The translations under genes were made by a program, and so were the position numbers. A DNA stretch of 45,314 bases, taken from assembly GCA_035764505.1 (NCBI GenBank), contig DASTZC010000005.1, forward strand, positions 1 through 45,314. Reading direction: 5' to 3'. How positions within the stretch are numbered: position 1 is the first letter of the stretch; every line of letters begins with the position of its first letter. Shown piece after piece: positions 5,129 through 12,595 of this stretch. The notes under the pieces are model-generated. The model saw nothing but the letters and a program-made list of their open reading frames with translations. It was not told where the DNA came from and ran no database searches. This DNA comes from Candidatus Polarisedimenticolia bacterium (GTDB taxonomy: Bacteria > Acidobacteriota > Polarisedimenticolia > Gp22-AA2 > AA152).

Positions 5129-5188
5129 CCGGCAGTCTCGATGCAGGCGCCCGCGCTGGAGAAAATAGCGCGCTCACGGAGGCATTTC

Positions 5189-5683
5189 ATGTTACGCAGA
5201 AAGCTTTTCGGATCCGCAGTCCTGATCCTGTCGCTCGTCGCGTTTCCTGCCCTCGCTGAATCGGACGACGCCAAAAAAGGTGACGAGGCGAAGCCGGCGT
5301 CGGCGAAGTCGGAGACAGGACTGATCGAATGCGACATGGAATTCAATCTTTCCGGGTGGTCGGCTTTCTATGCCACTTCCAAGGGCGAGGGGACCATCAA
5401 GTGCGACAATGGCGCGACCGCCAAGGTCGCGGTCAAATCGAAGGGAGGCGGCATCACCTTCGGAAAGTCGGAAGTGCTCAACGGCACCGGCCACTTCAGC
5501 GGGGCCAAGAACATCCAGGAGCTGTACGGCTCCTACGCCCAGTCCGAGGCCGGCGCGGGGGCGGGAAAATCCGCCAATGCACAGGCGATGACCAAGGGCG
5601 AAGTCTCCCTGGCTCTGAAGGGAACAGGCCGCGGAGTCAACGTGGGCTTCTCCTTCGGGAAATTCACCATCACCCCGATGTGA
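5189..5683 (+). CDS. Exported conserved protein of unknown function
   Basis: 164 residues. The ATG at 5189 is preceded by GGAGG (5178-5182). A signal peptide occupies about residues 1-24, followed by a charged low-complexity linker (KKGDEAKPASAKSE). The mature domain is glycine-rich with strand-like alternation: LIECDMEFNLSGWSAFYATS, TIKCDNGATAKVAVKSKGGG, then VSLALKGTGRGVNVGFSFGK. Two cysteines in the domain could form a disulfide. I recognise the pattern as a conserved bacterial hypothetical family but know no domain name or function. The stop lies 31 bases before the persulfide dioxygenase gene, so co-transcription is likely, though that does not prove a shared function. Confidence 0.75.
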   Translation: MLRRKLFGSAVLILSLVAFPALAESDDAKKGDEAKPASAKSETGLIECDMEFNLSGWSAFYATSKGEGTIKCDNGATAKVAVKSKGGGITFGKSEVLNGTGHFSGAKNIQELYGSYAQSEAGAGAGKSANAQAMTKGEVSLALKGTGRGVNVGFSFGKFTITPM

Positions 5684-5714: not shown

Positions 5715-7109
5715 ATGTGGTTCCAGCAGGTGGTCCGCGAGGCGACGGGGTGCGCCGCTTACCTGGTGGGGTCCACGCGCACGGGAGAGTGCCTGGTCTT
5801 CGATCCCCTGTGGGATGTCTCTCCCTATCTTGAAGCCGCGGCGCGCAAATCCTCCCGGATTACGCGAGTCGTGGATTCCCACAGCCATGCCGACCATGTC
5901 TCGGGAGCAAGGCGTCTGGCGGAATCCACCGGCGCCTCGCTCCTGCTGCCGCGCGCCGCGCGGGTTTCCTATCCCGCCGATTGGCTGGATCCCGGCCAGA
6001 AGATCCGCTTCGGAGAAGTCGAGGCCGAGGTGATTTCCATGCCCGGGCACCGCCCCGAGCAGATCAATCTCCTGCTGCGCGATCTCGACCGAGGTCCTCA
6101 TCCCTGGTGCCTGCTCACCGCCGACTTCCTGATGGTGGGGGATCTCGCGCGTCCCGATCTGGCGCAGGACGGCCGTGAGGGAGCGGCGATCCTGTTCCGG
6201 GAAGCCCTTCCGAAGCTGCTCGCCCTTCCCGATTTCGTCGAGGTCTATCCGGGCCATCTGGCCGGTTCCACCTGAGGGCGGGCCACCAGTGGCAAGTTTG
6301 CCACCACCGTCGGCTACGAGAAGCTGAGCAATCCCTCGCTTCAGTGCCGGGATCTCGAATCGTTCACGGCCCACATGCTCGCCGATCAGCCGGCGCGCCC
6401 GGCAAACATGCTCAACATCGTTGCCATCAACCAGGGGGCGAAGCCCCTGACAATGCAGGCGCCGCGGCCCGTCCCGCTGGATGCTCGCGCCGCCGGCGCA
6501 GCGCTCGATCGAGGCGCCGTGGCGCTGGACATCCGCGCTCCGGCGGATTTCGGAGCGTCACATCTGCCGGAGGCCCTGCATGTCCCCGCTTCGAGCTCCG
6601 AGTTCGAGCAGCGGGCCGGATGGATGCTCCCGCCGGAAGGGGAGATCTTCCTGGTTGCGGAGGATGAGAGGGCCGCGCAGGAAGCGGCCTTCAAGCTGGC
6701 GTTTGTCGGACTGGATGGCCGCGTGTCGGGCTTCGTGACGATGCACGACTGGCGGGCAGGAGGCTTGGCGGTATCGACCCTCCCGCAGCTGAGCGTGGAG
6801 GAGCTGTGGGAGAGAAGGAAATCCGAAGGGATAGGGGTCCTCGATGTCCGGGAGCCTTCGGAATGGCGCGAGGGCCATCTCGAGGAGGCGAGCCTGATGA
6901 GCTACAGGCAGCTTCCCGCGCGCCTCGCGGAGCTGGGATGGTCGCCGGACGAGCCCGTGGCGGTGATCTGCGCGACCGGGATGCGCTCCAGCACCGCCTC
7001 CAGCGTTCTCCTGCGCGCCGGCTTCCGCAAGGTCTTCAATGTGACGGGCGGCATGCGCGCCTGGAAGCAGGCGGGATTCCCCCTGACGTCCACCCCCGGC
7101 GGCCGGTGA
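5715..7109 (+). CDS. MBL-fold persulfide dioxygenase-rhodanese, candidate selenoprotein (in-frame TGA at 6273)
   Basis: 464 residues if TGA at 6273-6275 is read as selenocysteine (U187). GGAGG (5701-5705) precedes the ATG. The N-terminal metallo-beta-lactamase domain has every metal ligand: H56-x-H58-x-D60-H61 (SHSHADH), H112, D143 in MVGDLARPDL, and H181 in YPGHLAGST. The last motif is followed by TGA exactly where homologues have Cys (GSxCG...SGKPSSTIG). Beyond it the frame is open for 278 codons and keeps the family sequence (GRATSGKFATTVGYEK). It then has a degenerate rhodanese repeat without Cys (about 255-350) and a rhodanese domain with the active loop C419-ATGMRS. ETHE1/CstB proteins oxidise glutathione or CoA persulfide to sulfite/thiosulfate. 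CstB has a similar length and two functional cysteines; U187 probably matches its MBL-domain cysteine (from memory). No ribosome binding site precedes the internal ATG at 6375. The alternative is a nonsense mutation or base error splitting the gene into two parts. Confidence 0.75.
6273..6304 (+). promoter_or_regulatory. Candidate bacterial SECIS element (TGA plus hairpin)
   Basis: TGA at 6273-6275 is followed after 13 bases by GTGGCA (6289-6294), loop AGTT (6295-6298), then TGCCAC (6299-6304): a perfect 6-bp stem with a 4-base loop. The loop starts 20 bases after the TGA and has G at its second position. Published rules for bacterial SECIS elements require an apical loop about 16-37 bases after UGA, a short loop with G in its first two bases and a stem of at least 4 bp; all are met. 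SelB would bind such an element to deliver Sec-tRNA. The function is inferred. Confidence 0.6.
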
Positions 7110-10918: not shown

Positions 10919-12595
10919 ATGCTCCGAGAGTATTTCCGGCGACACACCCTCTGGATCTGCTTCGCCGCGGTGCTCGTCCCGCTGCTGTTCATGCTGGGGA
11001 TGCAGTTCGTCTGGCTGGGGCACCTCAAGGAGGCTTCCGCCCTGGCGCACAAGGCCGCCTTGCACACCCTCCTGGAGACAGTGGGAACGGAAGTCCAATA
11101 CTTCTACCGTGCCGCCGCCGAGCGGGCGCTGAACCTGTCGCCATCCATCTTCGACTCGACCGGGCAGCGATTGGAAGAGGCGGCCTGGTACTGGAAGAAG
11201 AAGCCGGTGCCGGCGGCGCGCCGCCTCTTCCTGGCCGATTTCACCCGCTCCGAGTTCGGCAACTTCCTGTTCTACGATCCGGACGACCATTCCCTCAAGC
11301 GGCCTCTCGCCTCCGACGAGTCGATGGCGATCGTCATGGCGGCCAGCCCGTGGCAGATGGTGCGGCTGGGCTCGGTGGGCAAGGGATTCTCGCTCATCGT
11401 CGACGAGCGCAGCCCCGATTACCGCATCATCCTGAACCCGATTGTGGATGAGCATCGCGGCATCGTGGGGGTCGCCGGGATGGTGCTGGACGAGAAATAC
11501 TTCCGCAAAGAATTGTTGACCCCCATCATCCGCAAGACGATGACGACCTTCTTCCCGACCTCGGGAGCGGACGACAAGACGATCCTGGTGCGCGATCGCG
11601 GTGGTCAAATCGTGGTCGCCTACGGCGCGGGGGACGGTAAGGGAGAGACAGTCACCGCGCGCTTCCCCTTCGTCTTCGCCGATTGGACCATGGACTTCAC
11701 CTCGGCGCGCAACATGCCGGAGGAGCTGGCCAGCGCCAGCTTCGCCTTCAATCTTTCGTTGTCAATCCTCCTGGCCCTGACGTTGCTGGGCGCCCTGGCG
11801 TTCGCCTTCCGCTCCGCCGGCAAGGCGATGAAGCTGTCGGAGATGAAATCCGATTTCGTATCGAATGTGTCGCACGAGCTGCGCACGCCGCTGGCCTCGA
11901 TCCGGGTGTTCGCCGAGCTGCTGCGCCTGGGCCGGGTCAAGAGTCCCGAGAAGGTGCAGGTCTACGGCGAGTACATCGAGGCGGAGAGCCGCCGGCTGAC
12001 GGGGCTGATCAACAACATCCTCGATTTCGCCCGCATCGAATCGGGACGCAAGACCTATAGCTTCTGTCGGGTCGACGTCGGCGAGGTAGTGGCTTCGGTG
12101 CTGCGCAGCTTCGAGATCCGCCTCGCCCCCGAGGGATACCGGATCCGCTTCGAGGGGCCCGAGAAGCCCATCACGCCGGTCGACCTGGATCCCGACGCCA
12201 TCAGCCAGGCGGTGCACAACCTCCTGGACAACGCGGTGAAATACTCGGGCGACGCGAAGGAAATTGCGGTCCGGCTCGACCAGGACGGGGAATGGCTCCT
12301 CATCTCGGTCCAGGATCATGGGATCGGTATCGCGCGCGAGGAGCAGAAGAAGATCTTCGAGCGCTTCCACCGGGTGAGCACCGGGCTGGTGCACGACGTA
12401 AAAGGGAGCGGCCTGGGACTGTCGATCGTGCATCACATCGTGCAGGCGCACGGCGGCGACGTCTGCGTGGAGAGCGAGCCGGGGCGCGGCAGCCGCTTCA
12501 CCCTCATCCTGCCGATGACGCAGCCGGGGCGCGGCGGCGCGGCGGCGCGAGCCCCGGAGGGAGCGGCGATTCCGGGGCTGCAGCGGGAAGCGTGA
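10919..12595 (+). CDS. Membrane sensor histidine kinase
   Basis: 558 residues. The ATG at 10919 follows AGAAAGGA. The first membrane segment is at about residues 13-33, then a periplasmic sensor region of about 240 residues with no family I recognise, then a second membrane segment (about 276-298). The HisKA domain carries the phospho-acceptor H319 in [14 protein letters not shown]. The ATPase domain has the N box ([10 protein letters not shown]), G1 (DHGIGI), F (FERFHR) and G2 (GSGLGLSIV). The last 20 or so residues are an Arg/Ala/Gly-rich tail. There is little room for a HAMP domain between the second segment and HisKA. The response regulator gene follows after 16 bases and is the obvious partner. 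The signal is unknown. Confidence 0.92.

Follow-up and report, generated by a model that had tools for sequence, protein, structure and literature searches.

Within the window, as we call the whole stretch of 45,314 nucleotides of acidobacterial DNA that was analysed, one gene contains an in-frame TGA that is very probably read as selenocysteine (Sec). Its features are listed in Table 1. GGAGG lies upstream of its ATG, translation across the gene finds the TGA at codon 187 as the sole interruption of the frame, and a second TGA, at codon 465 (7107-7109), is the natural terminator. Pfam, alignment, a structure model and a fold search together give the domain order MBL, pseudo-rhodanese, rhodanese, which is the CstB-type order. 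H56, H58, D60, H112, D137 and H181 of the predicted metal ligands are invariant in 34 relatives, as is the rhodanese C419; H61 varies. The invariant residues include H56, H112 and D137, which, from what is known of ETHE1, we take to be the iron ligands.

Table 1 Features of the Sec gene in the window
Feature	Position	Strand	Details
Selenoprotein gene, CstB-type persulfide dioxygenase/pseudo-rhodanese/rhodanese	5715..7109	+	464 aa, ATG start
MBL-fold (persulfide dioxygenase) domain	5715..6407	+	Pfam Lactamase_B; fold match to ETHE1, CstB
Predicted MBL metal ligands	H56 (5880), H58 (5886), D60 (5892), H61 (5895)	+	
Predicted MBL metal ligands	H112 (6048), D137 (6123), H181 (6255)	+	
In-frame TGA read as Sec187, within PGHLAGST-U-GRATSGK	6273..6275	+	Aligns with CstB Cys201
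Bacterial SECIS-like apical hairpin	Stem 6289-6294/6299-6304 (GUGGCA/UGCCAC), loop 6295-6298 (AGUU)	+	Consensus PMC13188914
Middle pseudo-rhodanese domain, without active-site Cys	6480..6755 (approximate boundary)	+	Full-length alignment, 3tp9 fold match, model
C-terminal rhodanese domain	6792..7070	+	Pfam PF00581, E 8e-24
Rhodanese active-site Cys419, CATGMRS	6969..6971	+	Aligns with CstB Cys408

The neighbourhood in the acidobacterial window consists of an MMPL transporter, a SpoIIE phosphatase, a kinase and two-component genes, and no sulfur-metabolism neighbours of the Sec gene were found in it. The open reading frame just upstream (5141-5683, 180 aa) has no Pfam match. Both the window (10919-12595) and a same-genus MAG (L092:5466-7142) have a histidine kinase gene on the downstream side, about 5.2 kb from the Sec gene, which amounts to partial synteny.

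Among solved structures, the best relative is 3tp9 (E 4.5e-73) and the next is 3r2u (E 3.8e-50), the structure of S. aureus CstB; both align over almost the full protein, and in both alignments the TGA faces the Cys of AGSxCG. U187 aligns with residue 225 of the 3r2u chain; because Met1 stands at chain position 25 in the alignment, native numbering makes the facing residue CstB Cys201. The same offset pairs C419 with CstB Cys408. The AlphaFold2 model, in which Cys was substituted for Sec, has a pLDDT of 94.1 and a pTM of 0.90, with its lowest internal confidence in the Sec loop (block means 77-86). The top Foldseek match of the model is 3tp9 (TM 0.87, full length), followed by 3r2u, and further matches are rhodanese-fused and single-domain persulfide dioxygenases, human ETHE1 among them. 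The sequence-only reading of this locus had described a single frame broken only by the TGA at 6273-6275, with both flanks belonging to one protein type and the TGA standing where the family has Cys. Translation, the Lactamase_B and Rhodanese matches and the two structural alignments bear out all of this; of its assignment to an ETHE1/CstB-type family, the type III (CstB-like) part stands, and ETHE1 proper does not apply. The type III class of CstB is taken from PMC6060420.

The MBL-domain Cys matching residue 187 is invariant across the type III enzymes compared here, and in the 5715 protein it is absent, with Sec in its place. In 23 more distant homologues (L011-L033), the aligned codon is TGC or TGT in every case. 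Among 120 related genomes, six further loci were found with 52-64% identity, each interrupted by a single TGA, which falls on the aligned codon; across 396 genomes of the phylum the clade has seven members, and all seven have the TGA. When an alignment of six TGA-form proteins was run against 84,980 species genomes, 35 loci were found. The codon is TGA in 31 of the 32 close loci, which come from Acidobacteriota, Chloroflexota (mostly Anaerolineae), Gemmatimonadota and a few unplaced genomes, and TGT in the single exception, L118 (Caldilineaceae). Once duplicates were removed, the same TGA was present in 33 distinct loci, 7 of them in Acidobacteriota (the source genome included) and 26 elsewhere, nearly all in Chloroflexota and Gemmatimonadota. 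Wherever the contig reaches the 3' end of a TGA form, a stop codon (TAA, TAG or TGA) follows 273-296 codons past the Sec codon. A tree calculated with column 187 masked places the TGA forms and L118 in one group with SH-aLRT support of 100% and a long stem.

Another important question is whether the mRNA carries a signal for Sec insertion. The published bacterial SECIS model calls for a loop 16-37 nt from the UGA, a G in the first two loop positions, a stem of 4-16 bp and a minimum free energy of at most -7.5 kcal/mol (PMC13188914). In the window, the loop of the putative hairpin starts 19 nt after the TGA, and a hairpin with its loop at exactly this distance is present in all 33 TGA forms, all of which agree with the published loop distance, loop G and stem length; among the Cys forms scored, L118 included, it is present in 0 of 23. 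The consensus in the TGA forms is (A)GUGGCA-AGGU-UGYCAC(U), with a stem of 6-7 bp, loop variants AGUU and AGGC, and the stem variant GUGACA/UGUCAC in L095. Five of the seven stem pairs never vary, the stem position 20/29 stays paired as GU, GC or AU, and compensatory covariation is nearly absent. Since most pairs are invariant, covariation says little here, and the freezing of synonymous codons served in its place. Ser+5 is AGT in 33/33 TGA forms, compared with 59 of 669 Ser codons (9%) elsewhere in the same genes; Lys+7 is AAG in 33/33; Gly+6 is GGC in 32/33, the lone exception altering the amino acid; and Val+8 (GTT, 25/25), Val+9 (GTC, 22/22) and Ala+9 (GCC, 11/11) are equally fixed, although these rows are related and the counts are thus not independent. 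Codons adjoining the hairpin vary freely in the same rows. The energy of the window hairpin is -8.0 to -9.0 kcal/mol, its stability relative to shuffled sequences is not unusual (z -0.64), and the core stem alone falls below -7.5 in 11/33. An Rfam scan of the window gave no match. The case for a candidate SECIS element rests on its conserved register and codons, not on energy.

The machinery for Sec insertion was found in the source genome (4.46 Mb, 100% complete), which contains tRNA-Sec with a TCA anticodon together with SelB (E 2.6e-100), SelA (5.8e-163) and SelD (1.7e-109). A single TGA also occurs in the selD gene (L074, G000:C274:16176-17102, minus strand), at the canonical UxxK site (SSGGUAAK), so the 5715 gene is not the only one in this genome to use UGA for Sec; selD with one TGA is also present in most of the related genomes tested. 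Among the six other acidobacterial genomes with the TGA form, G001 is without tRNA-Sec, G040 without SelB and SelD, and G114 without SelA and SelB, these gaps falling mostly in incomplete assemblies. A test of 20 further TGA-form genomes found tRNA-Sec in 16. The machinery is also present in most of the Cys-form relatives, and its presence is thus permissive rather than decisive. L118 (L118:1424-2755, Caldilineaceae CHL12), the only Cys form close to the Sec clade, no longer shows the hairpin while its genome has tRNA-Sec, which makes it a natural Sec/Cys comparison; we rejected its Cys codon as a sign of lost Sec machinery because of this tRNA. The computational checks proposed with the sequence-only reading accordingly came out in its favour: all four of selA, selB, selC and selD are in the same genome, the residue aligned with the TGA is Cys in 23/23 outside homologues, and other genomes of several phyla share the TGA (33 loci).

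From this comparative evidence, the ribosome would insert Sec at UGA187 by means of the downstream hairpin, SelB and tRNA-Sec(UCA). Judged from sequence comparison, Sec insertion taken by itself is close to certain, and the fuller reading of the gene as encoding a Sec-containing CstB-type persulfide dioxygenase is held with high confidence. To judge from the family and the conserved residues, the MBL domain would use one non-haem Fe(II) and O2 to convert the sulfane sulfur of low-molecular-weight persulfides to sulfite, and the C-terminal rhodanese would hand on sulfane sulfur through C419. Sec187 is predicted to sit on the loop right after the metal-site His181, replacing the equivalent of CstB C201. 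Its most likely part would be that of a nucleophile or relay which, close to the iron, takes up sulfane sulfur as Se-SH; once over-oxidised, Sec187 could be re-reduced, which a Cys in a site rich in O2 and persulfide could not easily be. We put the relay role forward tentatively, at slightly below an even chance. The suggestion in the sequence-only reading that Sec would make for a more reactive acceptor of persulfide is plausible. The wider proposal, a seleno-persulfide (Sec-Se-SH) cycle beside iron-bound O2 in a selenoenzyme that is at once a member of the MBL superfamily and a non-haem iron oxygenase, present in at least three phyla and acting in a sulfane-sulfur oxidation pathway, is possible and more tentative still.

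The chief alternative for function is that the protein is a selenoprotein in which Sec187 is non-catalytic, acting as a redox sensor or protective residue that forms a selenenylsulfide with a thiol or glutathione and guards the active site against over-oxidation. That Sec can be oxidised reversibly, an advantage it has in general, speaks for such a role. It also has a parallel in AcPDO, a type I enzyme whose surface cysteines form a disulfide and are glutathionylated, changes interpreted as protective by the authors of that study (PMC6060420). However, those cysteines belong to a different enzyme type without the AGSxCG loop, while residue 187 corresponds to the MBL Cys that all type III enzymes compared here share, on the loop after His181. 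We consider a purely protective role less likely than not, but a serious alternative.

Gene order around the Chloroflexota copies bears on the substrate. At 13 Chloroflexota loci, a 1,000-aa molybdopterin oxidoreductase is encoded just upstream (nearest named model PhsA, below the cut-off); at 8 of the Chloroflexota loci a 566-aa FeS/NrfD protein precedes the molybdopterin oxidoreductase; and at 7-8, two YeeE/YedE-type sulfur transporter halves and a NarJ/TorD-like protein are nearby. This order fits sulfane-sulfur oxidation. Examples of the operon are L097:1125-10773, L101, L112 and L122, which would represent a candidate sulfane-sulfur-to-sulfate pathway. We favour a SoeABC-type reading because the dioxygenase would make sulfite and the molybdoenzyme would oxidise it. 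In Chloroflexota, the Sec enzyme thus probably has YeeE/YedE importers and a sulfite dehydrogenase of the SoeABC-like kind as partners in turning sulfane sulfur into sulfate. In the source genome, neither a close SoeA nor a close type III SQR was found, and a SoeA-like partner there was dropped as a candidate, none being close.

The same transporters give some room to a different substrate, either a selenium compound (selenodiglutathione, perselenide) or another sulfane carrier, or to a rhodanese feeding an Se/S assembly pathway: YeeE/YedE genes adjoin the Chloroflexota copies, and one of them weakly matches the YedE/FdhT selenium-metabolism model. However, that match reaches 33 bits against a cut-off of 350, the thiosulfate transporter TsuA scores higher, and all of the dioxygenase features together with the sulfite-oxidase-like neighbour suit ordinary persulfide oxidation, which makes this alternative improbable.

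Two other readings dispense with Sec altogether. Under the standard code the locus gives two open reading frames, 5715-6275 and 6375-7109, as would be expected if the TGA were a true stop or a sequencing error, with a nonsense mutation or split gene leaving a 186-aa MBL fragment and a separate or decaying rhodanese part. However, the TGA recurs in 33 loci from several phyla, always at the conserved Cys; the hairpin and synonymous freeze occur in the TGA forms only; the full Sec machinery is present; and the downstream frame is intact. For the part 3' of the TGA, dN/dS is 0.36 between the window and L005 and 0.06-0.14 in four closer pairs (NG86, rough at these divergences), values that, as far as codon comparison goes, place the frame after the TGA under purifying selection. 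Decay of the downstream frame in relatives, which the sequence-only reading had named as evidence against itself, was not found: dN/dS is well below 1, and rhodanese C419 is invariant. We therefore rejected a pseudogene or sequencing error, the 33 loci and the purifying selection leaving this reading very little probability. A general reassignment of UGA without Sec insertion would also have the TGA read through in frame, but it is the least probable reading of all, because TGA also ends the 5715 gene (and several of its relatives) and tRNA-Sec with a TCA anticodon is present along with SelA, SelB and SelD, and the aligned residue is always Cys, never Trp or Gly.

No use of selenium is known in this class of sulfur-detoxifying enzymes, and the Sec-containing CstB-type form appears to make up a selenoprotein family that has not been described before. 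A catalogue of May 2026 lists 119 prokaryotic selenoprotein families, including rhodanese forms 1-5 and a Sec sulfide:quinone reductase, and has no MBL-fold or persulfide-dioxygenase family, the words lactamase, dioxygenase and MBL being absent from it (PMC13188914). NCBIfam (June 2026) has no model for a Sec CstB-type persulfide dioxygenase, and no description of a Sec persulfide dioxygenase was found among 5.4 million open papers; subscription papers lay mostly outside this coverage, so an earlier mention elsewhere is possible. Within these sources, the view in the sequence-only reading that Sec is not known to be described in this family holds. The selenoproteome would gain an apparently undescribed family, with a fold (MBL) and a reaction (persulfide dioxygenation) that are absent from the catalogue. 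In public MAGs, the annotation of Sec CstB-type genes probably shows them as truncated or split. With one enzyme occurring naturally in both a Sec and a Cys version, the reason for using Sec in persulfide chemistry and the role of CstB Cys201 can be tested directly, and the distribution suggests that selenium supply may affect sulfur oxidation in environmental Chloroflexota and Acidobacteriota.

Among known selenoproteins, the rhodaneses (forms 1-5; NF041203, TsoB NF045694) likewise combine a rhodanese domain with Sec, but their Sec motifs are UxxS, UxxG, CxU or UxxxxU and they have no MBL domain (PMC13188914), whereas in the 5715 protein the rhodanese keeps Cys419 and Sec is in the MBL domain; the protein misses the cut-offs of both models (34.5 vs 115 bits for NF041203 and 23.3 vs 805 bits for NF045694). 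The selenoprotein subtype of type III sulfide:quinone reductase (NF049943) is a Sec enzyme of sulfide oxidation that acts in the step before persulfide dioxygenase, although it is a flavoprotein of unrelated fold. Copies scoring above the cut-off of this family (L127, L128, L129 and L130) were found in four of the Chloroflexota genomes that encode the Sec dioxygenase. These four copies have no in-frame TGA, with Cys (HANC) in at least L127 and L129, and Sec is thus not universal in NF049943. A full selenoprotein sulfide pathway, with both Sec SQR and Sec dioxygenase, is unsupported, as the source genome has no match and the four copies lack the TGA. ETHE1 and PRF (the type I persulfide dioxygenase and its rhodanese fusion) share the MBL catalytic fold and metal ligands with the protein described here; PRF, however, has a single rhodanese domain and no AGSxCG loop, and ETHE1 lacks a rhodanese domain altogether. 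The closest likeness is to CstB (3r2u) and the Alicyclobacillus protein 3tp9, which have the same three-domain order, metal ligands, PGHxAGSxCG loop and rhodanese Cys, at 28-35% identity in the structure match; CstB, however, has Cys201 where Sec187 stands here, and the Sec clade lies apart from it on a long stem branch.
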